Source of the DNA: Daejeonella sp. JGW-45
Lineage (GTDB): Bacteria > Bacteroidota > Bacteroidia > Sphingobacteriales > Sphingobacteriaceae
Assembly (NCBI RefSeq): GCF_029360805.1
Contig: NZ_JARKNC010000010.1
Coordinates: forward strand, 485,287 to 549,286
Reading direction: 5' to 3'
DNA length: 64,000 bases
Within the stretch, counting starts at the first letter, position 1. Each line of letters begins with the position of its first letter. Both the position numbers and the translations under genes were made by a program. The notes beneath the pieces were generated by a model. It worked only from the letters and a program-made list of their open reading frames with translations, was not told where the DNA came from and did not search any database. Below, piece by piece: positions 27,839-47,812 of the stretch.

Positions 27839-27846
27839 ATGATTAA

Positions 27847-31032: not shown

Positions 31033-31042
31033 ATTTATTTCT

Positions 31043-33023: not shown

Positions 33024-34373
33024 TTAGTGCTTCCCGAACTGCTCTATAGCTTCGCCCAAGTCAAATACTTGTGTTTTATCACCAATAGCTTCATTCACGA
33101 TACTACTTCCCGCCGCACTACGATAGCCCCCTGCGCAGTGTACAATTACAGGTTTGTCTGTTGGGATCTCATTAATTCTTTCTCTCAATTCGCCCAGAGG
33201 AATGTTTTTCGCTGAGGGAAATATAGGTTCGGATTTGAATTCTGAACTATTTCTAATATCAATGATACTGTATTGATCAGGATTGTTTCTGAATTTCTCT
33301 ACATCAGCAACTTCCATTTCTTCTTTACCTTCATCGGAAACAATAGCGGCTTCAATAAACGACTCATAGCCAATACTGGCAGAACGTTCTATCAATTGAT
33401 TTAACTGCTCCTGATCTGATGCAGCCAAATAGAACTTTTCTCCCGGAGAAACAATGCTTCCGAGCCATGTTTCAAACTTAGCCCCCAATTGTATATTGAA
33501 AGAATTAGAAAAATGCCCTTTCTTGAATTTGTCCTGAGGACTGGCGTCGATAATGAGCATGTCAGGATTTAAAGAATCTGCTGTGGGTTTTGTTAAAATT
33601 TTCACTGCATTTACCGATGGCTCAAACGCCGGGACGCCTTTGCGGTTCAGATCCACATCATATCCGAAATATTTCGGAATAAAAGGCTGGTCTGCAGTAA
33701 GTTCTTTGATGAATTTTTCTTCAGTCATCTCCTGTAAAGACCAGTTGCTGATTTTTTCGGCGCCTATAGTACTGCGATTAGCTTCACTTAATCCTTTACC
33801 ACATAAGGTGCCAGCACCGTGTGCCGGATAAACCAGAACTTCATCATTTAAAGTCATTAATTTGTTTCTTAACGAAGAATACATCTGCCTGGCCAGGTCA
33901 TCTCTTTTCTGTTGAATGTTTCCTGCGCCTTCACGCAGATCCGGTCTTCCGCAATCTCCGATAAATAAGGTATCACCGGTAAAAACCGCTTTATCTTTTC
34001 CATCATGATTTAACACAATGGAGATACTGTCAGGAGAATGGCCCGGAGTGTACAAGCTTCTCAACTTAATTTTTCCAAAACTGATTTCAGAGCCTTCATC
34101 AAAAGGCTCAAAAGGGTAACTCACTCCCGTTAAACTATGAGCATAAATCTTAGCGCCAGTTGTTTCATGGATTTCCAGGTGGCTGCTCACAAAATCAGCA
34201 TGAGGATGAGTCTCTACTACAGCAATAATATCTGCGCTCATTTCTTTCGCATAATCATAATACTGTTTTGGGTTTCTTGAGGGATCTATTAAAACTATCT
34301 TACGTTCACATTCGCTAAGAATGGCATAGCTGTAATGAGCCAGGTATTTATCTTCAAATTGCTGAATCTTCAT
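33024..34373 (-). CDS. Persulfide dioxygenase-like MBL protein with two rhodanese domains
   Basis: A 449-residue protein. The N-terminal metallo-beta-lactamase domain has THPHADFVSSH, TPGHSPDSI, GDTLFIGDCGRPDL and YPAHGAGTLCGK, as in ETHE1-type enzymes that oxidise glutathione persulfide. A first rhodanese domain (about 255-345) lacks the active Cys; the second (about 365-445) has VHCAGGYRSA with it. Cytoplasmic. It is preceded by a Crp/Fnr box and a TTTG promoter element and belongs to the sulfur regulon. It probably passes sulfane sulfur between the rhodanese and dioxygenase sites. Confidence 0.9.
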   Translation of the reverse strand: MKIQQFEDKYLAHYSYAILSECERKIVLIDPSRNPKQYYDYAKEMSADIIAVVETHPHADFVSSHLEIHETTGAKIYAHSLTGVSYPFEPFDEGSEISFGKIKLRSLYTPGHSPDSISIVLNHDGKDKAVFTGDTLFIGDCGRPDLREGAGNIQQKRDDLARQMYSSLRNKLMTLNDEVLVYPAHGAGTLCGKGLSEANRSTIGAEKISNWSLQEMTEEKFIKELTADQPFIPKYFGYDVDLNRKGVPAFEPSVNAVKILTKPTADSLNPDMLIIDASPQDKFKKGHFSNSFNIQLGAKFETWLGSIVSPGEKFYLAASDQEQLNQLIERSASIGYESFIEAAIVSDEGKEEMEVADVEKFRNNPDQYSIIDIRNSSEFKSEPIFPSAKNIPLGELRERINEIPTDKPVIVHCAGGYRSAAGSSIVNEAIGDKTQVFDLGEAIEQFGKH

Positions 34374-34395
34374 GGTTTACTTTTTTTGAACAGTA

Positions 34396-34440
34396 CAAAT
34401 CTCTATAAAAAAAATCCCGTGCTGTGTGATTTTGGTCACA
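34396..34440 (-). promoter_or_regulatory. Crp/Fnr box 1 and promoter of the persulfide dioxygenase gene
   Basis: TGTGATTTTGGTCACA at 34425-34440 is a TGTGA-N6-TCACA palindrome. Read on the minus strand, GAGATTTG (34396-34403) lies at the same distance from it as the -7 element in the other four boxes: centre 36.5 nt from the final G. The gene starts 23 bp further on. Confidence 0.7.
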
Positions 34441-34501
34441 GAGAGATTTTATAACACAGAGTATGTAATGAATTACTTCGCAGGACTTATGAGTAAGCGA
34501 T

Positions 34502-35929
34502 TTATATTAAAGAAAAAGATTTTGGCAGATGGGGTCGATAAGGGCTATTTTTTTGAAGAAAGCTGGTCAAGGCATCTACTACATGTATACTCAGATCGAT
34601 CCGGTTCTTACCTAAATTCTTCGGCACACCCTGTTGGGTAACGAAGGCAACCTTGTAAATACTACCGGGTCTTAAATGCTCCTTTCCAATGAATACGTCC
34701 TGTAGCCTGAAGCCTTTCGGGTTTTCAATTCTGATATAAGCGGTTAATCCCAGACACCGTTTAACATAACCACCCATCTGTTTCATCGGATCTGCCGAAA
34801 AGGTACGTTCGAGATTTTCTTCCAGCATGTCGAGGATTTCTTTACCTGTAAGCTCAACGACTGAAACGGGAGGATTCATTGGAATGATATTAAACAGATC
34901 CCATCGATTCACTGGTCCGGCAGGGATAGGCACCCCATACCTCCAACCGTTTGAAAATGCGATATCAGCCGATGAGGTTTCTTTGATGGATTGTAGTAAA
35001 AGATCGTCCATAGACGATTCCAGCGTATTATAGCGATCCAGTAAAATACTGGTTTCACCCACATGCTCCTTCTGCAACTTTTGATAAGGCTTCATGATAG
35101 CTTCAATAAGCTGATCCATCTCTTTATCCGGCTCAATGCTATCGTTAACCGGAATAAGCTGGTATTTATAGCTGTTGATTTGCTTGTCCAAAATTTCAAG
35201 CTCCAGATGGCCTAAAAAAGATCCATGGCAGCCACATTGGATAAGAATGGTATCATTGATCAGACTTGGTTCAGATAAGCGGTTATGTGTATGAGCGCTC
35301 AGGCATACGTCAATGCCCTTAATCTCTGAAAGCATTTTTATGTCCTGAGGATAACCATTATGGGAAAGAAGAAAAACCAGGTCTGCTCCTTCCATTTTTA
35401 CCTGCTCGATGTAGCGGGGTAATTCCTCTGTGCCGTCTGTTATTTTTAATCCATCGCTAAAATTTTCAGGCATTGTTTTATCAATGATATTTGAGCAGAT
35501 ACCAATTATGGCAATCTTTACACTTTCTACTGCCTGGATAATAAAAGGCTTAAGAAAAAGGGTTTCATCGTTCTTGTAAACATTGATGCCCAAAACCGGA
35601 TAATTGAGCTGATCATTCAGCTTAAGCAGTTGATCAGGTCCATAGGCAAAATCCCAATGCCCAACCATGGCATTAAATCCAATTTTATTTAATACCGGAA
35701 CTATTGCTTCGCCTTTAGATTTAACGACCGGCAATGTGCCATGAAATGTATCACCACCATCAAGGACTAAAGTATTTAGGTTTTGCCTGCGGATATCCTT
35801 GATCAGGCTGTAGATACGGGAATATCCTCCCATTACTTTTGTTTCCCGGCTTTCGGCATCAAACATTAGTTCCGGATGAGGCTCCAGGTAGCCATGTACA
35901 TCATTTAAATAGGCGATGGATAATTTCAT
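34502..35929 (-). CDS. SoxB-like metallophosphoesterase/5'-nucleotidase-type hydrolase (cytoplasmic)
   Basis: A 475-residue two-domain enzyme without signal peptide (MKLSIAYLNDVHGYLEPH). Metal motifs: YLNDVHG, LDGGDTFHG, VGHWDFAYG, LSHNGYP and SAHTHNRL. A His in GHWD where nucleotidases have Asn (GNHE) is the form seen in SoxB, the thiosulfohydrolase. The C-terminal nucleotidase domain is present (SNGWRYGVPI). Its paralogue at 37805 has a signal and different ligands. It is the last gene of the putative sulfur operon. Substrate inferred only. Confidence 0.8.
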   Translation of the reverse strand: MKLSIAYLNDVHGYLEPHPELMFDAESRETKVMGGYSRIYSLIKDIRRQNLNTLVLDGGDTFHGTLPVVKSKGEAIVPVLNKIGFNAMVGHWDFAYGPDQLLKLNDQLNYPVLGINVYKNDETLFLKPFIIQAVESVKIAIIGICSNIIDKTMPENFSDGLKITDGTEELPRYIEQVKMEGADLVFLLSHNGYPQDIKMLSEIKGIDVCLSAHTHNRLSEPSLINDTILIQCGCHGSFLGHLELEILDKQINSYKYQLIPVNDSIEPDKEMDQLIEAIMKPYQKLQKEHVGETSILLDRYNTLESSMDDLLLQSIKETSSADIAFSNGWRYGVPIPAGPVNRWDLFNIIPMNPPVSVVELTGKEILDMLEENLERTFSADPMKQMGGYVKRCLGLTAYIRIENPKGFRLQDVFIGKEHLRPGSIYKVAFVTQQGVPKNLGKNRIDLSIHVVDALTSFLQKNSPYRPHLPKSFSLI

Positions 35930-36074
35930 CAGAATATGATTTAATCAATGGATATGAAGGTCGCCCGGATTTCCTTATCAGACAAGCTTGCCTGAGCTTA
36001 CCGGTTTTCGGTTCATAGGGTTTGGTTTTGTAGGATTTGATCGCTTTGAATGCCCATCAACCGAACATACAACC

Positions 36075-36461
36075 CTATAAGGCTTCAATTACTTTTTGCA
36101 ACCTAGCTCTGATTTCATGTGCAATATCATTCAAAGCACTATTTTCTATAGCCTTCATAGATGCTGCCGGATCTACAGCCGAAACCTCTACCTCCCCGGC
36201 TACTTTTTCCTGAACAATTACATTACACGGCAGCATGGTTCCAATTTTATCTTCTGCCAGTAAGGCTTTGTAGGCAAATGGCGGATTGCAAGCTCCCAGG
36301 ATTTTATAGTTATAAAAGTCAACATCTAATTTTTTCTTTAGGGTGACTTTTATATCAATTTCAGTTAGTATGCCAAAACCCTCCTCTTTAAGAGCATCAG
36401 TTACTTTTTGAATGGCATTGTCGAAGCTTCCTTTAATTGTTTTGCTAAAATAATATTCCAT
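36075..36461 (-). CDS. DUF302 protein
   Basis: A 128-residue soluble protein with the DUF302 core: FDNAIQKVTDALKEEGFGILTEIDI, then YKILGACNPPFAYKALLAEDKIGTMLPCNVIV. The family has no known enzymatic role but often occurs near sulfur and thiol genes. Two cysteines (GACNP and MLPCN) are placed as in other members. It lies between the AcfC-like gene and the second SoxB-like gene. Confidence 0.88.
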   Translation of the reverse strand: MEYYFSKTIKGSFDNAIQKVTDALKEEGFGILTEIDIKVTLKKKLDVDFYNYKILGACNPPFAYKALLAEDKIGTMLPCNVIVQEKVAGEVEVSAVDPAASMKAIENSALNDIAHEIRARLQKVIEAL

Positions 36462-36510
36462 GATTTTTTATTTTTAAGGTATTCCTTTCAAATTATTCTT
36501 TTTTTATTTT

Positions 36511-37254
36511 TTATTCCCATCCCCATTTTTTGAAAATAGCATGACCTTCTGCAGACAACAAAAACTGTATAAATTGCCGGGCTTCTGACTTTTGATTGGA
36601 AATGGTTGTAACAGAAATAGGCGTTCCCCTGTATACGGTTTGCTTTTTGGGGATTTCTACCAGCTCAGATACATCCTTTAGCCTGTTATGCCACGATGCA
36701 AAAATTATTATTGCATCATATTTAGTATCAGCCTTCCATGCATCAATTGCTATTGCAGTATTACCAAAAGCTCCTTTGATGTTTTTTTGGATCCCTCCAA
36801 TCAAATTTTGCCTTCCGGCCAGGTCTTCCCACATTCCTAATTGCCCGGCGCCGGTAATTTCTAATATATTGATACCTGGTTTGGCCAGATCTTTCAGTGA
36901 AGTAATATTTTTAGGGTTTCCAGGACGAACTAAAATTCCTGCCCGCCTTTTATATAATTCAGTTCTTGTAGTACTGTCCATTAATCCCGGGTGCTGCATT
37001 TTAAACTGAGTAAGCATGTATTCGGCACCTCCGAACACCAGGTCTGCGTTCTGTTTTGCTTTCTCTATCCATTTTGGCTCTGGCCCTGCAGTTACTTTAA
37101 CAGATATGGAATGTTTCATAGAAAACACTTTCGCGCATTCCTCCATGGCGGCCCCCGGTCCGCCGGGTCCATAAACATATAAGGTATCCTGCTTGGATTG
37201 TGCCTGGGACAATGCAGGGAGAATATAAAAGGCTAAAACGATTAAAGTTTTCAT
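36511..37254 (-). CDS. AcfC-like periplasmic substrate-binding protein
   Basis: A 247-residue protein with signal peptide (MKTLIVLAFYILPALSQAQ) and a ModA/AcfC-type type 2 periplasmic fold: LYVYGPGGPGAAMEECAKVF, DLVFGGAEYMLTQF, RRAGILVRPGNPKNI and a C-terminal QFIQFLLSAEGHAIFKKWGW. It should bind an oxyanion or small acid. No ABC transporter subunits are adjacent. In this sulfur cluster a sulfur oxyanion ligand is plausible, but not shown. Confidence 0.8.
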   Translation of the reverse strand: MKTLIVLAFYILPALSQAQSKQDTLYVYGPGGPGAAMEECAKVFSMKHSISVKVTAGPEPKWIEKAKQNADLVFGGAEYMLTQFKMQHPGLMDSTTRTELYKRRAGILVRPGNPKNITSLKDLAKPGINILEITGAGQLGMWEDLAGRQNLIGGIQKNIKGAFGNTAIAIDAWKADTKYDAIIIFASWHNRLKDVSELVEIPKKQTVYRGTPISVTTISNQKSEARQFIQFLLSAEGHAIFKKWGWE

Positions 37255-37287
37255 AAATACTTGCTTAAAAATTTTTACAAAAATTTC

Positions 37288-37743
37288 CTATGGATGAACT
37301 ATCGCCCAGCCCTGATAATGTCGAATGATGATCTCACCATTTCCGCTGGGTACAAATGAGATGAAAGAGAATAATGAGCTTTTATCAATTTTACGTTCCC
37401 TTAGCGTATTTTCACACTGGGCAAGAATTACACCTTTTGCCTGTAACTCCAGCAAGGTTTTTTCGAATGGCCCGGTTTTGTCGAATACCTTAACCCCATC
37501 TCCGAACACTACTAATTCAACATTCAGTTTACCTTCAAGCCGGGGGTCAGCAAGGGCATTTTTAATATTTTTTAGCGTAGCGTTTATTTTTTTATCATCG
37601 CCGTTATTTAAAACATAGAGCGCTTTATAATTTTTGCGTTTGGCTTCCGCGCCAGTAAAAATGGTAGGAGGTTGTTGAGAAAATGCTGGATTAACTGTGA
37701 TGATTAAAACTAATGCTGCAAAAGGGATCAAAAGATTTTTCAT
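37288..37743 (-). CDS. Exported DsrE/F-like protein
   Basis: A 151-residue protein starting MKNLLIPFAALVLIITVNPAFSQ, a signal peptide. The start at 37743 is chosen over an upstream one inside the SoxB gene. The rest is DsrE-like (KALYVLNNGDDKKINATLKN, LNVELVVFGDGVKVF, ELQAKGVILAQCENTLRERK), with the Cys in the position of the sulfur-carrying Cys of DsrE. A periplasmic sulfur carrier is a reasonable guess. Gap to the SoxB-like gene 61 bp. Confidence 0.8.
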   Translation of the reverse strand: MKNLLIPFAALVLIITVNPAFSQQPPTIFTGAEAKRKNYKALYVLNNGDDKKINATLKNIKNALADPRLEGKLNVELVVFGDGVKVFDKTGPFEKTLLELQAKGVILAQCENTLRERKIDKSSLFSFISFVPSGNGEIIIRHYQGWAIVHP

Positions 37744-37804
37744 TTTAATATAGTTTGTTTTTAATGGCAATGAAGCTATCATGAGATAAATATGTAAAAT
37801 GAGA

Positions 37805-39556
37805 TTAAACAAACTTATAATCGTAGCCTTCCAGCTGTGAAAGTAATGCTGCCGGCTGATCTGTCGCAATTACCCGGCCATCTATTTTTGGAGATACGGG
37901 TGAATGGACAGCCAAGTATTCGGTCATAATCTGGTGTAAGGTAACACCAAGTTTTTTTGGATTTTGAACGTGCTCTACCCTGCATAGGGTATCATCCGGG
38001 TCGCCTTCTCTCTCACAGGCAATGATGCTATACATTTTTTTCGTATCAATCATTTTTCCTTTTACCTTTACACTGTTAAGCCGCTTCCCCCTGCTGTTGT
38101 TTGCAGAAAAATCTATTTCCATGCCCGAAAACCGGATCACCCAACCTCCGAAACGCTCAGCCGGGTTTTCCGCAAAAACATTATGTAGTTCCCGTTCCAG
38201 CCAGTCCCACAATTGTTGACCGGTGACTTCACCGGCTTTGGCATCGCTGTCTACAGGCAGCATGCTCCATAAAAATTCATGGGTAATTTCCGCTGTACCC
38301 GTTTTAGCATCTGGCAATAACGGAGGACAGAATCTAAACCCGTTACTGAGCGCAATCTCAGGTTGAAATTTCCACATAATGGCATCGGTAATCATATTAT
38401 CCATGGGATTTTCCAGTACATAATACCTTACCAAAGGCACGGTAGATATGCCAATAACTTTATCTAGTTTCTCCTTGTAAGGTTCTCTTGCTTTATTTAC
38501 TAAATCTATCATCTCCTGATCCGCTTTGTATAGATCCGGATCGACATCTAACAATTGATAATTATGATCCTTTATTTTACCGTTCTCCACAACAATATCC
38601 AAGCGTGATATAAATGATCCGAATGCGCCTGGTTCTGTTACTTTCGCATACTTTGCTTCAATTGGCTTTCTTACTCTTTCGTGGGTATCAGCGCCCAATA
38701 TATAATCTACTCCTTCGATTTCCTTATTATTTCCCAAATCAACCTGTTGAGCAAGACCCATATGTGTAACAAGGAAAACCATGCTGCATTTCTCGTAATC
38801 TCTTAGCATTCGAACATATTTTGCCACATTCAGATCAGGCTTGGTAAATTTTATACCTGCGCTGTAGGCTGGCGACTGCCTTTTTGGTGTTAGGGGATCA
38901 TTATAGCCGATAAAGCCGATTTTAATCCCTCCCAGATTATTGGTCCAATACGGCGGAAACATTAGGTCACCGTTTTCACTATCCTTTGTATCATGGAACA
39001 TGTTGGCACAGATCTTCTGGGCGTGGTAGTTGCCCATATCTTTTCGCATCATTTCTTTGCCGTAAACAACTTCCCAGTTTCCGGGTAATACCAGGTCATA
39101 ACCTATATTATTGATCAGCGGAACGATAGCCTGACCTTCGCTCAACGCTGCAACGGCTCCCCCCTGAAAACAATCTCCTCCATCTATAACAAGTGTATTC
39201 CCAGGATTTTGGGCTTTGAGGGTATTTATCATTGTTTTCAGGACTGCAAAGCCGCCTCTTCTTTTATAAACCGGAAGATTATTTTCCCAGAAAAATTCAT
39301 CATGCGTATACAGTTGCGCATGTATATCCGCAGTATGTAAGAGGGTAATATGGTTGGCTTTACCTGCTTTGACCGCATGGCTCTTTATAATCTCTGAGGT
39401 ATGATACTCATTGCCTGAAATAGCAGAAGCTACCTGCGGCAGGCCAGAAAATGCTAAACCAGCCATACCTGCGGTTTTCAGGAATGTACGGCGGGCATTA
39501 CCGCAGTTACAGAGATTAGATTCTTTTTTTGAAAACATATTTGCTGGACTAGTCAT
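37805..39556 (-). CDS. soxB: SoxB-like exported metallohydrolase
   Basis: A 583-residue enzyme with a Tat-type signal (RRTFLKTAGMAGLAFSG). Metal motifs: LLHTADIHAQLY, IDGGDCFQGG, LPGNWEVVYG, VTHMGLAQQ and GADTHERV. The last is usually G-H-x-H; here the first His is Asp. The C-terminal substrate domain contains SNGFRFCPPLLP. SoxB hydrolyses sulfate from a thiosulfate-carrier adduct; 5'-nucleotidases share the fold. The nearby TsdA, rhodanese and DsrE genes favour a SoxB-like role. The gene follows tsdA by 13 bp. Confidence 0.82.
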   Translation of the reverse strand: MTSPANMFSKKESNLCNCGNARRTFLKTAGMAGLAFSGLPQVASAISGNEYHTSEIIKSHAVKAGKANHITLLHTADIHAQLYTHDEFFWENNLPVYKRRGGFAVLKTMINTLKAQNPGNTLVIDGGDCFQGGAVAALSEGQAIVPLINNIGYDLVLPGNWEVVYGKEMMRKDMGNYHAQKICANMFHDTKDSENGDLMFPPYWTNNLGGIKIGFIGYNDPLTPKRQSPAYSAGIKFTKPDLNVAKYVRMLRDYEKCSMVFLVTHMGLAQQVDLGNNKEIEGVDYILGADTHERVRKPIEAKYAKVTEPGAFGSFISRLDIVVENGKIKDHNYQLLDVDPDLYKADQEMIDLVNKAREPYKEKLDKVIGISTVPLVRYYVLENPMDNMITDAIMWKFQPEIALSNGFRFCPPLLPDAKTGTAEITHEFLWSMLPVDSDAKAGEVTGQQLWDWLERELHNVFAENPAERFGGWVIRFSGMEIDFSANNSRGKRLNSVKVKGKMIDTKKMYSIIACEREGDPDDTLCRVEHVQNPKKLGVTLHQIMTEYLAVHSPVSPKIDGRVIATDQPAALLSQLEGYDYKFV

Positions 39557-39569
39557 TTAGGTTTTACAG

Positions 39570-40628
39570 TTAGCTCCCTTTCTGTACTATCGGTTTAAAG
39601 GGGCCATATTTGTGCTGTTCTTCAGAAAATTTATCCCCGTATGGCCCGAATGGAAAGTCTATGGGTTTCTTACTTAAATCTTTCCAGTCTTTCCTTTGAT
39701 CTTTATGAGGCCTGGGTCTGGAATTCACAAAAGCAGCTATATCCCATGCTTCTTCATCTGTAAGCTGAGGATTTTCATGTGAGACTCCTAAAGGCATATT
39801 ATTCTTGACAAAACCGGCAAAACTGCTTATTCTGTATAGACCGGCGCCATCATTATAACTATGATCTCCCCATAAAGGCGGATAGGTATAGCTGGTATTA
39901 TCGGGATTAAGCAACCCTTTACCGTTCTTACCATGACAAGAAATACACTTAGCTTTATAAACCGCAGAGCCCATTTTAGGATCTGCAGCCCGGTCAAGAA
40001 AAGCTAATTTCTGCAGCCCGGCTCCTTCGGGTGTTTTGCCCTTTTCCACTCCGGTTCCCAGCCATTTTATATAGGCGATCATGGCTCTCATTTCCTTACT
40101 GGAACTCTCGAGCGGCTTCCCGTTTAAACTCCTTTCAAAGCAGTCATTAATCCTTTTCTCTATACTTTCTTTAGTTCCCGATCGGGCACGAAATTTTGGA
40201 TAGGTGGCATATACTGCTGAATAATTGTTGCCAAATGGTTTGGTACCCGCATCTAAATGGCAATTCTGGCAGTTCATCCCGTTACTTATATTAGCTACCG
40301 TACCTCTAGGGCCCAGATAAGTTGAAGTATGGGCTATCAATTCCTTCCCATACCTTATAGTTTCACCATAATTATCCGAAGGAATGGATGTTTCTGAGGG
40401 AGGACTCCAATAGTTAACCACCTCTTTAGATGTTTCGGCAGCAGTTTGATCCGGAACAGGTTGAAATTCTGAGGAAGCAACTTGGTCTTCATTTTCATTT
40501 TTCCGCTGACTAAATATAACACTTACTAAAATCCCAGCCACCACGATAAATAATATCGAAATAATACCTGCCGCTCTTGAAGTTATAAGTAATGCCTTTT
40601 CCGTTTCATTTAACTTATTCTTGCCCAT
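39570..40628 (-). CDS. tsdA: TsdA-like dihaem cytochrome (thiosulfate dehydrogenase)
   Basis: A 352-residue membrane-anchored periplasmic dihaem cytochrome c. Haem 1 is at CQNCH (C120-H124) and haem 2 at CISCH (C228-H232); NNMPLG offers the Met ligand. INDCFERSLNGKPL (C163) matches the TsdA region whose Cys is the unusual axial ligand of haem 1. One TM anchor at about 15-38. TsdA couples two thiosulfates to tetrathionate. ATG at 40628 preferred over an upstream TTG. Second gene of the operon behind box 2. Confidence 0.83.
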   Translation of the reverse strand: MGKNKLNETEKALLITSRAAGIISILFIVVAGILVSVIFSQRKNENEDQVASSEFQPVPDQTAAETSKEVVNYWSPPSETSIPSDNYGETIRYGKELIAHTSTYLGPRGTVANISNGMNCQNCHLDAGTKPFGNNYSAVYATYPKFRARSGTKESIEKRINDCFERSLNGKPLESSSKEMRAMIAYIKWLGTGVEKGKTPEGAGLQKLAFLDRAADPKMGSAVYKAKCISCHGKNGKGLLNPDNTSYTYPPLWGDHSYNDGAGLYRISSFAGFVKNNMPLGVSHENPQLTDEEAWDIAAFVNSRPRPHKDQRKDWKDLSKKPIDFPFGPYGDKFSEEQHKYGPFKPIVQKGS

Positions 40629-40684
40629 TGAATTATAACTTTCTTCCTCCAATTATTAAGGTGGAGTATAATTGAATTAAGAAA

Positions 40685-40891
40685 TTATTGATTTGTCCTT
40701 TTCGTTCGTATACCAAATGGAGAGTACAGGGGACAAAAACCAATGAAGCTGGTTATGATGAATGCAACAGAAACAACCAGTAAAATGATGGCGTTGGTAC
40801 CTGAAATAACATTGGTGTAATAAAGCACCGCGATCACGATAGCGATCACAAATCGAAGTATGCGATCAAGATTCCCCATGTTTTTTATCAT
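40685..40891 (-). CDS. DUF2892 (YgaP-like) membrane protein
   Basis: A 68-residue protein with two membrane helices: NLDRILRFVIAIVIAVLYY and AIILLVVSVAFIITSFIGFCPLYSPFGI. The family is the membrane part of YgaP-type rhodaneses and is frequent in sulfur clusters. First gene after Crp/Fnr box 2, 57 bp before tsdA. Confidence 0.85.
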   Translation of the reverse strand: MIKNMGNLDRILRFVIAIVIAVLYYTNVISGTNAIILLVVSVAFIITSFIGFCPLYSPFGIRTKRTNQ

Positions 40892-40925
40892 CGTATTGGA
40901 TTTAGGTTAACGCTATCAACCATTT

Positions 40926-40970
40926 CAAATTTACTGTTGTCAATTAGAAGGTAAGGTGACAATTGTCACA
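40926..40970 (-). promoter_or_regulatory. Crp/Fnr box 2 and promoter of the DUF2892-tsdA-soxB operon
   Basis: GGTGACAATTGTCACA at 40955-40970 contains a perfect 14-bp palindrome. On the minus strand TAAATTTG (40926-40933) is a full TAnnTTTG element; its last G is 36.5 nt from the box centre. The first start codon follows 35 bp on. Confidence 0.82.
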
Positions 40971-41031
40971 TAATTCAAGTTTTATATTCATGCTGAAAAA
41001 GCATAAATGATCTGAAGCATTGTATAAAAAC

Positions 41032-42231
41032 TCAGGACATCCTGAATTTTATCAGTAATGCAGATAAAGCCGTGAGGACACCAATGTTTATCACAGCAAC
41101 CTCAAGACCAAAAGCATCAGCCAGGGCGCCTGATAAAAGCGCCCCAAAAACATATCCGGAATCCCGCCATAAACGGAAAACACCTATGCTCTCTGCTCTT
41201 TGCCCAGGATTGGTATAGTCTGCAATGGCTGCTAAAAATGCAGGGTAAACAATTGCCGTTCCCAGACCAAGTATTACGGAGATCAATATATAGTAATACA
41301 TTTCAGTAGCATATCCCATAAATATAATGGCGATACCCTGCATCAACATCCCCCAAAATAACAAGGCCTTTTTGGGAAATTTATCAGCTAGTTTCCCTGT
41401 AAATAGTTGACCAAGGCCCCAAATTGCCGGGTAGACAGAAACAACTATTCCAATTTCTTTAAGTCCATAGCCTTTGGCAGCCAACAAAACAGGTAATAAG
41501 CCCCAAACCATTCCGTCGTTTAAATTATTAACTAAACCTGCCTGGGTAATTGAAGAAAGATTTTTATGTCTGAATGTAGTATCAAGAAAAATATGCCTAA
41601 GGGGTTCTATTAATGAAAATTTCTTTTCATGAAGAGCAAATTTCCTGGTATCTTTTATCAGAAAAATACTTGCTAATAAGCCCAGTAGCGATAAGCTGAT
41701 TCCAATGTAAAAAGGGTAAGGTCTTAATCCATAGGTGCTGGCAATGTACCCGGTAAGCAGAGCCACTAATGCAACGGCCAGGTATCCGGCGAATTCATTC
41801 AGTCCCATAGCAAAGCCGCGATCCTTCTCTCCTACAAGGTCAATTTTCATTACAACGGTAGATGACCAGGTTAAGCCCTGACTGATCCCTAGAAATATAT
41901 TAGCGACGATGATCCAGTTCCAATGAGTGGCATAAATCAAGAAGAAAGGAACGGGCAGAGCAATGATCCATCCGTAGACCAGTAAATTTTTTCTGCCGAT
42001 TTTGTTTGATAATGCACCGGCAAAATAGTTGCTGGCTGCCTTGGTAAGACCAAATACTACAATAAAGGAAAGAACCGCTGACTGTGTTGCAAGAGAGAAT
42101 TCCTGCATGGCCAGTTCAGGAATAATAGTACGTTCCATGCCAACCATTCCCCCAACAAAGGCATTCACGAGAACCAAAAGAGAAAACTGTTTCCAATTTT
42201 CCCGGAGGCCTAGTCTGGCTTGATCAGACAC
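41032..42231 (-). CDS. Major facilitator transporter
   Basis: A 399-residue protein with twelve predicted helices. The segment SNKIGRKNLLVYGW after helix 2 is the MFS loop signature and GKLADKFPKKALLFWG its second copy. Starts with GTG at 42231 that overlaps the stop of the rhodanese gene by 1 bp (TAGTG), so they are coupled. Substrate unknown; within this cluster a sulfur compound is possible. Confidence 0.85.
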   Translation of the reverse strand: MSDQARLGLRENWKQFSLLVLVNAFVGGMVGMERTIIPELAMQEFSLATQSAVLSFIVVFGLTKAASNYFAGALSNKIGRKNLLVYGWIIALPVPFFLIYATHWNWIIVANIFLGISQGLTWSSTVVMKIDLVGEKDRGFAMGLNEFAGYLAVALVALLTGYIASTYGLRPYPFYIGISLSLLGLLASIFLIKDTRKFALHEKKFSLIEPLRHIFLDTTFRHKNLSSITQAGLVNNLNDGMVWGLLPVLLAAKGYGLKEIGIVVSVYPAIWGLGQLFTGKLADKFPKKALLFWGMLMQGIAIIFMGYATEMYYYILISVILGLGTAIVYPAFLAAIADYTNPGQRAESIGVFRLWRDSGYVFGALLSGALADAFGLEVAVINIGVLTALSALLIKFRMS

Positions 42232-42683
42232 TATTTGGCAAGAGGATAACCCTTATTGATCCAGTCAGTTTTAATGTTTGTAGGGAGGTTTAATAAGCGG
42301 GCTTTTGTAAACCCACTGCTCTGTAAAGCTTTAAAAGCGGGGCGAATATTTGGACACTTTTCGAACGGACAACACCCGCAATACACGACAATTGATGTAG
42401 TTTTAGGCAGTTTGGTAAGCGCTTTTTTGAATCGTTCAAGGTTTTCTTTTTCGCTGGCAGCGCCCATGTTTTTGGCCCCCTTAATATCTTCTACAACACC
42501 GATATTGAAAATTAAAGGCTTTGCAGCTTTAGAATTATTTATTAGAGCAGCCAATTGACCAGGCTGAATTAACTGATTTTTTGACCAGGGATCATTTGTT
42601 CCAGCCAGTCCCTTGTTAGGGAACTGCTGTGCAAATGTGCCGAAAGTTGTAATTACGGCGAGTATACTTAAGATTATTTTCAT
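42231..42683 (-). CDS. Exported rhodanese-like protein with extra cysteines
   Basis: A 150-residue protein with a signal peptide (MKIILSILAVITTFGTFAQ). The active loop is YCGCCPFEKCPN (C102, C104, C105, C110) in place of the simple CxxGxR of rhodaneses. Preceding LIFNIGVVEDIKGAKNMG fits the fold. The extra cysteines may bind a metal or take part in sulfur relay. It lies 36 bp after a YeeE/YedE gene. Confidence 0.78.
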   Translation of the reverse strand: MKIILSILAVITTFGTFAQQFPNKGLAGTNDPWSKNQLIQPGQLAALINNSKAAKPLIFNIGVVEDIKGAKNMGAASEKENLERFKKALTKLPKTTSIVVYCGCCPFEKCPNIRPAFKALQSSGFTKARLLNLPTNIKTDWINKGYPLAK

Positions 42684-42719
42684 GGTGCTTAATTTGTATA
42701 TCCTTCTAATTCCTTCAAT

Positions 42720-43133
42720 TCAATGCGGTAGTCTGTCTTTAATTAAACCGTAGATGTATGTTCCTACCAAAGAGCCAAGAACCACAATGATCATTGCCCA
42801 ATATCCATAACCTATATTTACAAACATAGGTCCCGGACAGGCTCCTGTTAAAGCCCACCCTAAGCCAAAAATCAAACCCCCGATCAGATACCGTGGAAAG
42901 CTCTTATCCTTGTCCTGAAAAACTATAGGATTCCCGTGATAATCCCGTATTTTGAACTTCTTCAATAAATACACTGCCAAGGCTCCAAGAAGCACAGCAG
43001 TTCCAATGATCCCAAACATATGAAATGACTGAAAACGGAACATTTCCTGTATGCGATACCATGATATAGCTTCTGATTTAGCCATTATTATACCGAATAA
43101 TACCCCTGTAACAATAAACTTCAGGCTTTTCAT
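42720..43133 (-). CDS. YeeE/YedE-family half protein (sulfur transport)
   Basis: A 137-residue membrane protein with about four helices and the signature GGLIFGLGWALTGACPGPMFVNIGYG (Cys in TGACPGP). YeeE imports thiosulfate through a relay of cysteines; this and the next gene look like two halves that together make one. Its ATG overlaps the stop of the partner (ATGA). Confidence 0.85.
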   Translation of the reverse strand: MKSLKFIVTGVLFGIIMAKSEAISWYRIQEMFRFQSFHMFGIIGTAVLLGALAVYLLKKFKIRDYHGNPIVFQDKDKSFPRYLIGGLIFGLGWALTGACPGPMFVNIGYGYWAMIIVVLGSLVGTYIYGLIKDRLPH

Positions 43134-43693
43134 ATTTTAAAGATCAATGGTAATAATAAATAAGTCATCAGTAAGCCCCCGGCGAAAAATCCAATTACTG
43201 CCAGGAGCGAAGGTAACTGCAGATTTGACAATCCGCTGATAGCATGTCCTGAGGTGCATCCTCCGGCATACCTGGCTCCAAAACCCACGAGCAAGCCTCC
43301 TGTAAGCAGGATTATAAACCCTTTAACGCTTAGTGCAAAGTCAGGCCCGAAAATATCTGAAGGATTCAGCTCACCATCAAAGGTTATACCTAATGATCTC
43401 AGATCTTGCACGGTAGCTTCAGATAGTTTTAAAGGCTGATCACTTTTAAGTATAGTTGAAGCCAATAGTCCGCCAAAAACAGAGCCCACCAGGAACAGTA
43501 GGTTCCATTTCTGCGTCTTCCAGTCAAAATCGAAAAATTTAACTTTTGCGCCAGCTCCAGCTATGGTACATAAGGTTCTCAAATTTGAAGAAACACCAAA
43601 AGATTTTCCAAAATAAATGAGCAAAACCATTGTAAATCCAATCATTGCTCCCGATGTATACCAGGGCCAGGGTTGTTTAATCAGTTCAAGCAT
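43130..43693 (-). CDS. YeeE/YedE-family half protein (sulfur transport)
   Basis: A 187-residue membrane protein. Start at 43693 (MLELIKQPWPWYTSGAMIGF) is chosen since the longer frame lies in the UspA gene. Helical, with GFGARYAGGCTSGHAISG carrying the Cys of the family and TLCTIAGAG another. Overlaps the stop of the UspA gene by 8 bp and the start of the partner half by 4 bp. Confidence 0.85.
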   Translation of the reverse strand: MLELIKQPWPWYTSGAMIGFTMVLLIYFGKSFGVSSNLRTLCTIAGAGAKVKFFDFDWKTQKWNLLFLVGSVFGGLLASTILKSDQPLKLSEATVQDLRSLGITFDGELNPSDIFGPDFALSVKGFIILLTGGLLVGFGARYAGGCTSGHAISGLSNLQLPSLLAVIGFFAGGLLMTYLLLPLIFKI

Positions 43694-44528
43694 GTAGTGA
43701 TTCTCGTAATTTAAAAGTAAATAAGGGTTTTTGACAGTGATTAACCAGCCGTTCTGCGATACTTCCAAATAGTAAATGACTCAATCCTTTACGCCCATTC
43801 GTTCTGATACACACCAGATCCATTTCTGATTCCCGGTTGAAATTTTTTACTCCATCTGTCACCTTGTGATCCCGGTACAGGTGTATTTTGAAATATTTAA
43901 GCTGATGTTCCTCAGCGAAGAACTTCATTTGGGCTTCAATCTGATCTGCATAAGCCTCATCCTCCTCTTTGAGTATCTGCAATAAATGAATTGTACTTCC
44001 AAAAGCCTCAGCAATTTGCCTGATCAGGTCAATTTGTATACCCTTTCCGAAGTACTCAAAATCGGCGACTAAAAGGATATTTTCTAAATTATTTATACTT
44101 GTTGCCGGTCTTAAAGTGATCACCGGTACATCCAGATGTCTAACCACATGCTGGGCTTCCGATCCGGATACCTTTTCCATAAAACCACTGGCCCCACTAG
44201 TCCCCATAATGACCAGGTCTACGCCTATATCCAATGATGTAAAATGGATTTGATCTGTAAGTAAGCCAGTTTTAAGTAAAGGATCAAAGATTCTCCCCGC
44301 CTTGTGTAAAGCATCAAACTGTTTTAACACTTCCTGTTCCTTTTTTTCAATAGTTAATTTGTTACTAACGTCGTTCAGATTCTCTGATATGACAGAGCTA
44401 TTCGCTTCAATAACATGCAACAGATTGACTTTTACAGGAATCTTCCTGGAAAGGAGTTCTGTCATGAGAAAGGCCTGTTCACTTACCTTCGAAAAATCGG
44501 TTGGGATTAAAATATTAATGGGCTTCAT
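43686..44528 (-). CDS. Tandem universal stress protein (UspA)
   Basis: A 280-residue protein with two UspA-like halves. The first (MKPINILIPTDFSKVSEQAF and VIMGTSGASGFMEKVSGSEA) has the nucleotide-loop pattern G-x2-G-x9-G(S); the second (NILLVADFEYFGKG, VCIRTNGRKGLSHLLFGS) is a diverged copy. Stress-related ATP-binding regulator in the cytoplasm. Lies between the rhodanese and YeeE genes. Confidence 0.85.
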   Translation of the reverse strand: MKPINILIPTDFSKVSEQAFLMTELLSRKIPVKVNLLHVIEANSSVISENLNDVSNKLTIEKKEQEVLKQFDALHKAGRIFDPLLKTGLLTDQIHFTSLDIGVDLVIMGTSGASGFMEKVSGSEAQHVVRHLDVPVITLRPATSINNLENILLVADFEYFGKGIQIDLIRQIAEAFGSTIHLLQILKEEDEAYADQIEAQMKFFAEEHQLKYFKIHLYRDHKVTDGVKNFNRESEMDLVCIRTNGRKGLSHLLFGSIAERLVNHCQKPLFTFKLRESLHA

Positions 44529-44557
44529 TCTTATTTTTTCTTTGCTGTATGAGGTGA

Positions 44558-44881
44558 TTACATTTCAGGCCAGGCTCCGATACCCCCAACCAGATTATAT
44601 GAGTTTAAGCCCAGACCCTCCATAACTTTGGCCGCACTTCCGCTTCTATTACCGCTTCTACAGAATAAAAAGTAAGATTTATCAGGGTCAAGTTGCTTGA
44701 TTTTAGCCTGAAAATCAGCACCCAAAAAATCTATGTTGACGGAACCGAGAATGGTTCCGCTATTATATTCATCAGGGGTCCTTACGTCTACCAATATGGC
44801 ATTGTCAGTATTTTGAAAATTCTTTCTAAAATGGTATCCATCCAGATCGTTTTCGTTCTTTTTAAAAAAGCTATTAAACAT
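44558..44881 (-). CDS. Single-domain rhodanese
   Basis: A 107-residue cytoplasmic rhodanese: ILVDVRTPDEYNSGTILGSV and active loop FCRSGNRSGSAAKVM with the catalytic Cys and CxxGxRS pattern. It transfers sulfane sulfur. First gene of the operon behind Crp/Fnr box 3 (rhodanese, UspA, two YeeE halves, exported rhodanese, MFS). Confidence 0.9.
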   Translation of the reverse strand: MFNSFFKKNENDLDGYHFRKNFQNTDNAILVDVRTPDEYNSGTILGSVNIDFLGADFQAKIKQLDPDKSYFLFCRSGNRSGSAAKVMEGLGLNSYNLVGGIGAWPEM

Positions 44882-44943
44882 CGTTTCTTATCCTATTTAA
44901 GGTTACAATACAAGTAATTCTATTTTATTATAGATGTAGCGTA

Positions 44944-44988
44944 CAAAATTGAGTATTTAGAGTTAATCGTTTGGTGACTTTTGTCACA
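44944..44988 (-). promoter_or_regulatory. Crp/Fnr box 3 and promoter of the rhodanese operon
   Basis: GGTGACTTTTGTCACA at 44973-44988. CAATTTTG (44944-44951, minus strand) lies at the same 36.5-nt distance from its centre as in the other sites. The start codon at 44881 is 63 bp on. Confidence 0.78.
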
Positions 44989-44995
44989 AGGGATG

Positions 44996-45790
44996 CTATC
45001 TGATAACTTCTTTTAAGATGATATATATACCCATTACGAGTACAAACCAGCCAAAACCCTTCTTTAATTTGTCACTGGATACTTTGTTATTAATAGATCC
45101 TCCTATAATTATCCCCGTAATAGCAATCATTGTAATTTTTAAAAGAAAGGTCCAATCAATTAGAATATGACCAAGATCTCCCGTAAATCCGATCAGTGAA
45201 TTAAGAGCTATAATCATTAACGAAGTGCCAATGGCTTTTTTAACTGGTAATTTAATAAGGTATATCAAAACCGGAATCAGCAAAAAGCCACCTCCTGCTC
45301 CTAACAGCCCGGTAACAACCCCAATTGTTATACCATAGCCCAGTAACTTGAAAAACTTAATACACTCCGGACATTCCTTCTCAGGAGCGGAAGACTTAGA
45401 ATCTCTAATCATACTTACTGAGGCCAGCAGCATGAGGATTCCAAAAAGCGCCATGGTTAAAAAAGACCAGGTAATGGTAAAACCATTAATAACAGCGATA
45501 TTTTCCGGAATGACAGGCACTATAAATTTGCGGGTTATAAACACAGTAACAATAGAGGCTGATCCAAAGAAAAAGACTGCCTTAGTATTTACAAGTCCAT
45601 TTCTATAATTGTTCACCGCTCCAATCAGGCTGGTAGAACCCACAATGAATAAGGAATAGGATGTAGCTAGCAATGGATTTAAGCCAAAAAGATAGACCAT
45701 AACAGGAACTGTCAGGATAGAACCGCCACCGCCAATTAATCCCAGTGAGATCCCAATTAATGCAGCAGCCAGATAACCTAATATTTCCAT
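44996..45790 (-). CDS. TauE/SafE-family sulfite/sulfonate exporter
   Basis: A 264-residue membrane protein with eight predicted helices and the two TauE repeats: GISLGLIGGGGSILTVPVMVYLFG and GVVTGLLGAGGGFLLIPVLIYL. The family exports sulfite, thiosulfate-derived or sulfonate anions. It would remove sulfite formed by the persulfide dioxygenase. It has its own box 4. Confidence 0.9.
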   Translation of the reverse strand: MEILGYLAAALIGISLGLIGGGGSILTVPVMVYLFGLNPLLATSYSLFIVGSTSLIGAVNNYRNGLVNTKAVFFFGSASIVTVFITRKFIVPVIPENIAVINGFTITWSFLTMALFGILMLLASVSMIRDSKSSAPEKECPECIKFFKLLGYGITIGVVTGLLGAGGGFLLIPVLIYLIKLPVKKAIGTSLMIIALNSLIGFTGDLGHILIDWTFLLKITMIAITGIIIGGSINNKVSSDKLKKGFGWFVLVMGIYIILKEVIR

Positions 45791-45807
45791 GATTTTAAAT
45801 AGAAAAA

Positions 45808-45852
45808 CAAAGGTGGTGGAAAAGCTGAAGCTAGACGGTGACTTTAGTCACA
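45808..45852 (-). promoter_or_regulatory. Crp/Fnr box 4 and promoter of the TauE/SafE gene
   Basis: GGTGACTTTAGTCACA at 45837-45852. CACCTTTG (45808-45815, minus strand) is the TTTG-type -7 element with the same 36.5-nt spacing. The start codon at 45790 is 18 bp on. Confidence 0.8.
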
Positions 45853-46013
45853 CCTGCAATTTGAATAGATTTTTCAAGACAGGACTTTACATATTTACGG
45901 ACACAGGAAGGATTGGCCGGTATTCTTTAACTGTTAATTTAAAGATTTAATTGTTCGCCTTGGGTTAAGAGCAATTTTATATCAGCATTAAACCCTTTTC
46001 ATCTAACGGATCA

Positions 46014-46226
46014 TCATAAATTCTTATCCCGGCTATCAACAGAACAACCAGCAGTGCCACAACAACCGGTATTCGTTATTGCCTGAAAGATGAAAAGTGC
46101 TGAAAGTAACCCAAATAATATATCCTTTGACTGAAAGGCTTGGAAAGCGATCAACAAGCCCATGATAAGTCTGACCCATCTGATTAAATGCCAGTTTGTA
46201 AGTATTTTTTCTCTTATTGTTTCCAT
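46014..46226 (-). CDS. Small membrane protein, DUF2892-like
   Basis: A 70-residue protein starting METIREKILTNWHLIRWVRL at 46226, preferred to an upstream start because it fits the promoter. Two helices with the end FQAITNTGCCGTAGCSVDSR, rich in Cys. Similar in layout to the DUF2892 protein at 40685 but with a CC...C tail. It is a single-gene unit behind box 5. Confidence 0.7.
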   Translation of the reverse strand: METIREKILTNWHLIRWVRLIMGLLIAFQAFQSKDILFGLLSALFIFQAITNTGCCGTAGCSVDSRDKNL

Positions 46227-46244
46227 GGCTACGCTTAGTAAACA

Positions 46245-46289
46245 CAAAAATACCTAAGCAGAAAACCAATCAGGGTGACAAATGTCACC
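46245..46289 (-). promoter_or_regulatory. Crp/Fnr box 5 and promoter
   Basis: GGTGACAAATGTCACC at 46274-46289 and TATTTTTG (46245-46252, minus strand), a perfect TAnnTTTG element at the same 36.5-nt distance. The ATG at 46226 follows 19 bp on. Confidence 0.82.
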
Positions 46290-46323
46290 GCCAGGTTAAA
46301 GGATTAGAATTGACTAGTTAGAG

Positions 46324-46953
46324 TTATCTCAACCATTCAATATAATTTCTATGCAATAGCAGATCACCTTTCTGTTCCATTTTCTTCAATAGGCGGGAAA
46401 TGACCTCCCTGGATGAACTTAGATCCGAGGCAATCTCACTATGAGTAATTTTGAGTTCTTTTGTCTGCAATTTCATCACCTGATTGCGGAGATAAAAATC
46501 AAGACGCTCGTCCATACCTTTAAATGCGATGTGATCGATAACTACTAAGAGTTCTTCATATCGTGACCTATAGGTTTCCAATACAAAATAATACCATGTT
46601 TTATAATTGCGCATCAGGTCATCCATGAGTTCGATAGGCAGGGTAATTACCTTCGTCTTTTCAACAGCCTTAGCCATAATTTCACTCGCCTCTTTTTTGG
46701 CTGCGCAAATCATAGAAAGGGCACATGCATTGCCTGGCTCCAGGTAATACATGAAGAACTCACCACCCTCCGGACCTTCACGATAAAGTTTAATTCTTCC
46801 TTCTACTACAAGCATCGTGGACCGAAAATATTGACCAGTGGTCATTAGTATCTCGTCCGGCTCAAACTCTTTTATTGAGGCGTTTTGCTCAATTTTTTCC
46901 ATAAGAGCAGGTTCGAAGTTCTTAAACTTATGTTTTAAATATTCTTTAATCAT
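46324..46953 (-). CDS. Crp/Fnr-family transcription regulator of the sulfur cluster
   Basis: A 209-residue regulator. The N-terminal cyclic-nucleotide-like domain (PDEILMTTGQYFRSTMLVVE, GRIKLYREGPEGGEFFMYYL) is followed by a C-terminal HTH (ITHSEIASDLSSSREVISRL). It lacks an FNR-type Cys cluster, so oxygen sensing by 4Fe-4S is unlikely. A few Cys (ACALSMICAAKK) could sense sulfur. It lies directly upstream of the box-5 gene. The five boxes nearby fit a Crp/Fnr-type target, so this protein is the probable regulator. Its own promoter region has a TAATTTTG element but no box. Confidence 0.88.
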   Translation of the reverse strand: MIKEYLKHKFKNFEPALMEKIEQNASIKEFEPDEILMTTGQYFRSTMLVVEGRIKLYREGPEGGEFFMYYLEPGNACALSMICAAKKEASEIMAKAVEKTKVITLPIELMDDLMRNYKTWYYFVLETYRSRYEELLVVIDHIAFKGMDERLDFYLRNQVMKLQTKELKITHSEIASDLSSSREVISRLLKKMEQKGDLLLHRNYIEWLR

Positions 46954-47293: not shown

Positions 47294-47812
47294 CTAGTCT
47301 CCCAGAATCTTTGCGGCAGCATTTGCGAGAAGCTTAACGCCTGCAATCTCTTGAATTGTGGGAGTTCGGTGTTGGTAAAAGTAGGTTCCAAAGGTACCTA
47401 TTACCTTTTGCCGATCATTTAGTATTGGCATGCTCCATGCGCTCTTAAAGCCTAATGCAAGTGGTAAATGACGTAGCTCTTCCCACTTATCGTCAGCGCA
47501 AAAATCTTCGGTAATGATAATCGAAGAAGTTGCAGCAGCGGCTGCACAGGTGCCTACACGGGCGTTAGGTTTCAACCCATCAATTTTATTGATATAATCA
47601 CTAGGCAACCCAGGAGATGCGGCATTCCTTAATAATCCGTCTTTGTCAAGCACGAGTATACTAGAAACCGTATCAGACCCAGCCGCCTTTTCGGCGGTGT
47701 ATACTAAAAAATTAAGAATATCTTGTTTTTTATGCCCTGATTCAAGCATTTCCATAGCCTGTTCGAACGATTTCTCGTATTCCTCATGAATATCTGTTGT
47801 GCTTGCTGCCAT
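47294..47812 (-). CDS. GAF-domain protein
   Basis: A 172-residue soluble protein with a single GAF domain: VSSILVLDKDGLLRNAASPG, ARVGTCAAAAATSSIIITED and AWSMPILNDRQKVIGTFGTYF. A charged helix is at the N-terminus. No output domain is attached, so it may sense a small ligand or be part of a separate signal complex. No partner gene is evident; flanked by pseudogenes. Confidence 0.85.
   Translation of the reverse strand: MAASTTDIHEEYEKSFEQAMEMLESGHKKQDILNFLVYTAEKAAGSDTVSSILVLDKDGLLRNAASPGLPSDYINKIDGLKPNARVGTCAAAAATSSIIITEDFCADDKWEELRHLPLALGFKSAWSMPILNDRQKVIGTFGTYFYQHRTPTIQEIAGVKLLANAAAKILGD

Follow-up and report, generated by a model that had tools for sequence, protein, structure and literature searches.

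In Escherichia coli, the class II site of CRP is TGTGA-N6-TCACA at −41.5, and CRP contacts cAMP through Gly71, Glu72, Arg82, Ser83, Thr127 and Ser128; FNR, of the same fold, has four cysteines for a [4Fe-4S] cluster. According to published work, Arg180 of CRP contacts G2 of the TGTGA half-site, and Arg185 and Glu181 read its G4:C4 pair, Glu181 contacting the C (PMC11253593; the same three base-reading residues are also given in PMC12531629). CprK, likewise of this fold, is controlled through a disulfide (PMC2610375). Among known regulators that respond to sulfane sulfur or sulfide, SoxR, sHdrR (PMC10451225, PMC12423496) and BigR (PMC5823870) of Proteobacteria repress sox, sulfur transferase/dioxygenase and TauE-/SoxT-type transport genes, and the sulfane-sulfur repressors rely on paired cysteines that form sulfur bridges (PMC10451225). 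Among the open-licence titles and abstracts listed, we found no description of a Bacteroidota Crp/Fnr regulator of inorganic sulfur use. Here we analyse a 64,000-nucleotide stretch of Daejeonella sp. JGW-45 (Bacteroidota; contig NZ_JARKNC010000010.1, positions 485,287 to 549,286), hereafter the window, in which five CRP-type sites with fixed promoter spacing appear to constitute a real regulon of sulfur genes. Very probably, the CRP-like protein whose gene lies beside them binds these sites and activates the genes in class II fashion.

46324 to 46953, minus strand: Crp/Fnr-family regulator of 209 aa, the proposed activator (PF00027, PF13545, PF00325)

The first-pass annotation of this sequence had reported five sites close to GGTGAC-N4-GTCACA, each accompanied on the minus strand by a TTTG-ending −7 element with its final G 36.5 nt from the box centre. 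All five sites were located, with 2, 0, 0, 0 and 1 mismatches to that form in order of position, the octamers were those quoted, and the distance held in five of five cases. The description of the box stood only in part: read in promoter direction, the sites are of the CRP type, (T/G)GTGA-N6-TCAC(A/C), four of them being TGTGAC-N4-(G/A)TCAC(C/A) and the fifth GGTGAC-N4-GTCACC. The elements are as follows, the predicted starts being numbered after PMC6847099.

34425 to 34440, minus strand: box 1, TGTGACCAAAATCACA, preceding the MBL-rhodanese gene
34396 to 34403, minus strand: −7 element of box 1, GAGATTTG, predicted start 34391
40955 to 40970, minus strand: box 2, TGTGACAATTGTCACC, preceding the DUF2892-tsdA-soxB-like genes
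40926 to 40933, minus strand: −7 element of box 2, TAAATTTG, predicted start 40921
44973 to 44988, minus strand: box 3, TGTGACAAAAGTCACC, preceding the rhodanese-Usp-YeeE-YeeE-MFS genes
44944 to 44951, minus strand: −7 element of box 3, CAATTTTG, predicted start 44939
45837 to 45852, minus strand: box 4, TGTGACTAAAGTCACC, preceding tauE/safE
45808 to 45815, minus strand: −7 element of box 4, CACCTTTG, predicted start 45803
46274 to 46289, minus strand: box 5, GGTGACATTTGTCACC, preceding an open reading frame (ORF) for a 70-aa membrane-protein-like product
46245 to 46252, minus strand: −7 element of box 5, TATTTTTG, predicted start 46240

Taken alone, the box is near chance: at up to three mismatches the window holds 36 matches against 24.1 ± 5.5 in shuffled sequences, 4 of 100 shuffles equalling it, and the strict palindrome and the spacing were therefore used instead. 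The palindrome KGTGAYNNNNRTCACM occurs at 10 places in the genome, five of them the boxes of the window, compared with one place for the reversed-pattern control. The composite site, that is, the box followed by 25 nt and TTTG, has five perfect matches in the whole 4.1-Mb genome, all of them the five in the window, and none in the reversed control; at two mismatches there are 35 matches versus 18 in the control, so that only perfect and one-mismatch composite matches are informative. With TTTG present at 0.0043 per position 5′ of the 51 window ORFs, the chance of five sites sharing one of 60 offsets is on the order of 1e-10, a rough figure, as some of the 51 ORFs are possibly not genes.

The first-pass annotation suggested looking in related genomes for this box ahead of the corresponding genes, and within the family the search was positive, with spacing identical to the nucleotide. 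At E ≤ 1e-50, 49 of the 301 family genomes searched, the Daejeonella genome included, encode a close orthologue of the regulator, and the composite site is found in 40 of these 49 versus 22 of the 252 genomes without the regulator; altogether, the family yields 97 composite matches versus 6 in the reversed control. Loci were then defined as stretches around all 50 further orthologues, plus the window, and genes with a blastp score over 40 bits to the window cluster genes (Usp and MFS included) were treated as cluster-like. A box with GTGAY or GTAAY halves lies within 150 nt upstream of 89 of the 209 cluster-like genes, 75 at 36.5 nt and 8 at 37.5 nt, compared with 7 of the 551 other genes, one of them at 36.5 nt. 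Around 81 GTGA boxes, TTTG occurs 77 times at 36.5 nt and 8 times at the next commonest offset, a count that includes loci L041-L048, seven of these eight apparently being repeats; they are absent from the counts of 71 sites, 209 genes and half-sites. The 71 unique sites (GTGA-pattern box, TTTG at 36.5 nt required, other positions unselected) have as their nearest gene TauE in 33 cases, MBL-rhodanese in 24, a small CCG protein in 5, YeeE in 4, DUF2892 in 2, and TsdA and rhodanese in one each, with one site lacking an assignment.

Beyond the family, the regulator was found in 34 of 395 genomes of a phylum sample (E ≤ 1e-45), from which 36 loci were taken. The box recurs there too, with looser half-sites: strict GTGAC-type boxes number 16 in the 36 loci, only 6 of them at 36.5 nt, and with up to two mismatches TTTG stands before cluster-like genes 41 times at 36.5 nt and 6 times at 37.5 nt. 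In f4, which has the Glu-type regulator defined below, 30 of 74 cluster-like genes carry a box, all 30 at 36.5 nt, versus 9 of 214 other genes, 3 of them at 36.5 nt; the respective figures for cluster-like genes are 4 of 15 in f2 (3 at 36.5 nt) and 0 of 2 in each of f5 and f7.

These counts bear on whether the boxes might represent duplicated or inherited DNA without function, an explanation that we find scarcely credible. Relatives do share descent, and counts across genomes are not independent; however, the five window promoters are dissimilar to one another outside the box and the −7 element, and in the family the intervening spacer is weakly conserved in sequence (0.01-0.38 bits across positions 19-38 and 0.81 bits at position 18) but fixed in length. 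We know of no neutral model that would give a fixed spacing with free spacer sequence.

The promoter map of Flavobacterium johnsoniae defines the −7 element as TAHHTTTG, in which T occupies −12, A −11 and G −5 (PMC6847099), the element spanning −12 to −5 (PMC9723704). With the last G at −5, as mapped in Flavobacterium, the 36.5-nt spacing would centre the box at −41.5, where the first-pass annotation had placed it; this is the position of a class II activator, overlapping the −35/−33 region. Among the 71 sites, A occupies −11 in 97%, and G occurs at −10 in 4% and at −9 in 0%, which, with TTTG (selected for) at −8 to −5, corresponds to the −7 element of the Bacteroidota housekeeping sigma factor. 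A TTTG-like −33 element is not visible, the near half of the box occupying that place, and an A-rich tract approximately 7-12 nt upstream of the box could be a contact of the C-terminal domain of the polymerase alpha subunit. The fixed geometry also bears on the reverse proposal, in which the regulator would be a repressor that blocks the polymerase at the −33 region and is released by sulfur compounds. The overlap of the box with that region would suit such a repressor, and the sulfane-sulfur and sulfide regulators of other phyla introduced above do repress, yet a repressor would have no need of an exact distance, whereas the offset holds to the nucleotide across varying spacers, and the missing −33 element and the mostly missing T at −12 would be features of activator-dependent promoters. 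We thus consider repression unlikely and favour class II activation.

The gene at 46324-46953, proposed as the regulator in the first-pass annotation, gains support from the co-occurrence described above and from the recognition helix of its product. The protein belongs to the Crp/Fnr superfamily, with PF00027 at 36.9 bits (cut-off 27.5), PF13545 at 28.8 (27) and PF00325 at 23.6 (21), and the 8 PDB sequence matches and 50 Foldseek matches shown are all of the Crp/Fnr type. Its alignment to E. coli CRP pairs S-R182-E183-V-I-S-R187 with S-R-E-T-V-G-R; the shared Arg-Glu-Arg triad, by which CRP reads bases, fits a TGTGA-N6-TCACA site. The triad is conserved in 81 of 81 regulators with Glu at this place (Glu type) in an alignment and tree of 97 of 100 regulator sequences, the 3 outside 195-260 aa being left out, and among nine proteins with a cyclic-nucleotide-binding (cNMP) domain found in the genome (97.6% complete) only the window protein has it. 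The cAMP-contacting residues of CRP, in contrast, are not conserved in the 81 Glu-type rows, where the alignment is gapped and unsure around 72-83: Ala replaces Gly71 in 80, a gap stands at Glu72 in 81, and the place of Arg82 is Glu in 63 and Arg in 4, that of Ser83 Thr in 44, Lys in 20 and Ser in 3, that of Thr127 Leu in 58 and Val in 19, and that of Ser128 Leu in 81. The NCBIfam profile of CRP scores 39.3 bits against a cut-off of 266.

A different Crp/Fnr protein might act on the five boxes, one candidate being the only paralogue found in the genome at E ≤ 0.001 (C1:17008-17643, 35%), in which Val replaces the Glu of the triad. Its gene belongs to a second sulfur cluster, which also contains TauE, MBL-rhodanese and YeeE genes, and a one-mismatch GTGAC composite lies just downstream of it. 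However, the GTGAC composite is present in only 11 of 87 genomes with the paralogue type (one of the 11 being the Daejeonella genome) and 12 of 166 with neither regulator, versus 40 of 49 with the Glu type, and none of the 8 other cNMP proteins found has the Arg-Glu-Arg triad, which makes control of the boxes by this paralogue or another such protein quite improbable.

With the 46324-46953 protein as the regulator, we envisage that it would bind the box as a dimer, each recognition helix using Arg182, Glu183 and Arg187 to read GTGA. Centred at −41.5 over the −33 region, it would activate the housekeeping polymerase of Bacteroidota in class II fashion. The activated promoters would drive genes whose products oxidise inorganic sulfur, carry it or export it, and persulfide or polysulfide might be sensed by C77 and C83, in or near the stretch that in CRP binds the cAMP phosphate. 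The likeness to E. coli CRP encompasses the fold family, the R-E-x-x-x-R triad, the GTGA half-site, the palindrome and the predicted centre at −41.5; the differences are the non-conserved cAMP-binding residues, with a cysteine pair nearby instead, a polymerase that recognises TAnnTTTG-type promoters and a single pathway in place of a global regulon. CprK and FNR share the fold, but their half-sites differ from the window boxes, and the window protein has two cysteines rather than the four of FNR. With SoxR, sHdrR and BigR the system shares related target genes, and with SoxR and its kin two conserved cysteines, but SoxR and sHdrR combine the ArsR fold with repression, whereas the window protein has Crp/Fnr domains and matches and is predicted to activate. 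In comparison with these systems, it would be a Crp/Fnr class II activator with a new regulon and probably a new sensory variant. If this is right, a widely shared regulon can be predicted from sequence alone, the Crp fold has acquired a new sensory use, and nature provides a case in which a recognition-helix residue and the matching site base differ together; the fixed −41.5 geometry moreover allows class II activation to be tested on a polymerase with promoters unlike those of E. coli.

Several observations weigh against this picture. Nine of the 49 regulator-bearing family genomes have no perfect composite site, the GTGA-pattern site is absent from 5 of the 50 relatives' loci, and 8 sites in the family lie at 37.5 rather than 36.5 nt; in f8, 8 of 9 cluster-like genes have a box, 6 at 37.5 nt and none at 36.5 nt. 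Furthermore, the T at −12 of TAHHTTTG, nearly invariant in F. johnsoniae, is found in only 20% of the 71 sites, with G in 44% and C in 34%, and in 2 of the 35 TauE promoters of the family. Loss of this T as a general mark of activator dependence was considered and partly rejected: in the phylum set, all 15 of the MBL-rhodanese promoters have T, and upstream of other genes (280 NNnnTTTG octamers examined) T is found in 35% of xAnnTTTG octamers, which may be mostly chance occurrences.

C77 and C83 are the only cysteines of the window regulator. In the alignment, all 81 Glu-type and all 16 Val-type regulators have both, and 43 of the 81 Glu-type proteins contain no further cysteine. The pair falls in or next to the stretch of CRP that binds the phosphate, where the alignment is gapped, and cysteines occupy both aligned places in 3DV8, a Crp/Fnr protein of the Firmicute Eubacterium rectale titled 'putative', which is the best PDB match by sequence (2.2e-18) as well as by Foldseek, at 26% identity in the Foldseek alignment; we know of no target of this protein. 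As judged from the residues, this suggests a thiol switch responding to sulfane sulfur or to redox state, the invariant pair being a candidate counterpart of the sulfur-bridge pair of the ArsR-type sensors. We give roughly an even chance to the signal being reactive sulfane sulfur (persulfide or polysulfide), an assessment that stands apart from our greater confidence in the regulon. The alternative, to which we accord a smaller though appreciable likelihood, keeps the same sites and regulator and takes the cysteine pair as a plain dithiol/disulfide redox switch for oxygen, NO or thiol stress, with the sulfur genes induced indirectly. Two invariant cysteines are compatible with either chemistry, but the targets at the 71 sites are almost exclusively sulfur-cluster genes, a bias that is partly built in, as the loci were chosen around the regulator. 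The AlphaFold model, with a pLDDT of 68.9 overall and under 50 at both cysteines, is too weak there for the distance between them to be used, a further point against the picture drawn above.

All 16 Val-type rows fall into a single clade (support 99/85), a sister clade that tends to have GTAAC-N4-GTTAC boxes at the same spacing. Of the unique 36.5-nt sites before cluster-like genes, those of the Glu type have two GTGAY halves in 69 cases, one GTAAY half in 35 and two GTAAY halves in none, whereas for the Val type the respective counts are 0, 4 and 8; the shifted box that accompanies the change from Glu to Val further supports the assignment of the regulator, the base that differs belonging to the same G:C pair whose C is contacted by Glu181 in CRP (PMC11253593). 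GTAAC-N4-GTTAC followed by N26 and TTTG is found in 65 of the 87 family genomes with a paralogue-like regulator (E ≤ 1e-50; the recognition helix was not read in all 87) versus 27 of 214 without. The 27 comprise 24 among the 166 genomes with neither regulator and 3 among the 48 that have only the Glu type (or among 49 when the Daejeonella genome, which has none, is counted). Both regulators co-occur in a single genome of the 301, that of the window, whereas counts of 49 and 87 would lead one to expect approximately 14 (Fisher p 4.6e-7, relatedness ignored). We tentatively propose, with a confidence falling a little short of even, that sulfur oxidation and detoxification in Bacteroidota are governed by CRP-like activators of two classes. 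In both, the former cAMP pocket would serve as a cysteine-pair sensor of sulfane sulfur, and one helix residue (Glu for GTGAC, Val for GTAAC) would insulate the classes from each other, their class II promoters being otherwise the same, with one class per genome except in that of the window. On the other side, the single Val clade makes the Glu/Val switch one evolutionary event, seen repeatedly by descent; the Glu/GTGAC rule is loose, with one GTAAY half in 35 of 104 unique Glu-type sites and a GTAAC-N4-GTTAC box at 37.5 nt in the Glu-type locus L177; and the background of the GTAAC composite is high, with about 67 reversed-control matches (counted by hand) besides the 24 of 166 genomes with neither regulator. 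In the Daejeonella genome, the GTAAC composite has 5 matches at up to one mismatch versus 16 in the control, and although one of them lies approximately 45 nt before the MBL-rhodanese gene of the second cluster, these matches are no more than suggestive.

Some further sites were observed. The one-mismatch GTGAC-type composite downstream of the Val-type paralogue lies at 8896-8940 of locus L038 (G000:C1:8000-24000) and precedes a small ORF (8449-8898) and then a gene for a beta-CASP metallo-hydrolase. In f8, a box is located upstream of the regulator gene itself for 6 of 6 regulators (L174, L175, L177, L178, L180 and L183), and autoregulation together with a spacing longer by one base is possible there. 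Family genomes without a Glu-type regulator, among them G090, G171 and G222, have composites of the form TGTGATTAT(A/G)ATCACA whose 25-nt spacers are almost the same, so that another Crp-like regulator may share the spacing.

The genes behind the boxes, with probable operons (predicted extent behind box 2, co-transcription predicted from spacing behind box 3), are the following.

33024 to 34373, minus strand: MBL-fold and rhodanese protein (PF00753 + PF00581), putative persulfide dioxygenase
34502 to 40891, minus strand: probable operon behind box 2, comprising the next seven genes
40685 to 40891, minus strand: YgaP-like transmembrane protein (DUF2892, PF11127)
39570 to 40652, minus strand: SoxA/TsdA-type cytochrome c
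37805 to 39556, minus strand: SoxB-like protein
37288 to 37815, minus strand: DsrE-like protein
36511 to 37254, minus strand: solute-binding protein (PF13531)
36075 to 36461, minus strand: DUF302 protein (PF03625)
34502 to 35929, minus strand: second SoxB-like ORF
41032 to 44881, minus strand: probable operon behind box 3, comprising the next six genes
44558 to 44881, minus strand: rhodanese
43686 to 44528, minus strand: Usp protein
43130 to 43768 and 42720 to 43133, minus strand: two YeeE/Sulf_transp genes
42231 to 42683, minus strand: 150-aa protein with only a sub-cut-off rhodanese match
41032 to 42231, minus strand: MFS protein
44996 to 45790, minus strand: TauE/SafE exporter (PF01925)
46014 to 46226, minus strand: small ORF of 70 aa, hydrophobic by reading, tail NTGCCGTAGC

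Some of the names given in the first-pass annotation required adjustment. Pfam identifies the supposed persulfide dioxygenase as an MBL-rhodanese protein, and it falls below every NCBIfam cut-off listed. Behind box 2, the DUF2892 gene was confirmed, but the SoxB profile scores only 274.6 (37805-39556) and 316.2 (34502-35929) against a curated cut-off of 550, and both ORFs are therefore termed SoxB-like. The label DUF2892-like for the gene behind box 5 had to be dropped, as neither Pfam nor NCBIfam gives the 70-aa ORF a match at E ≤ 0.001; its relatives recur in other genomes behind the same box.

The MBL-rhodanese gene is followed immediately by an RND efflux system (HlyD_D23, ACR_tran and OEP proteins), encoded at 26735-32407 on the minus strand; the genome-wide composite search found no perfect site before it. 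Upstream of the regulator gene, also on the minus strand, lie genes for a GAF-domain protein (47294-47812) and a HupE/UreJ-like protein (49479-50168). ARAGORN found no tRNA gene in the window, and GC content gives no sign of recent transfer of the cluster (0.399 vs 0.400). Recent transfer was considered because same-genus genomes mostly have the paralogue type: among 20 such genomes, the Daejeonella genome included, the Glu-type regulator is present in 2 and the paralogue type in 12. The window cluster (33024-46953) may have originated in another genus, although its GC content does not differ.

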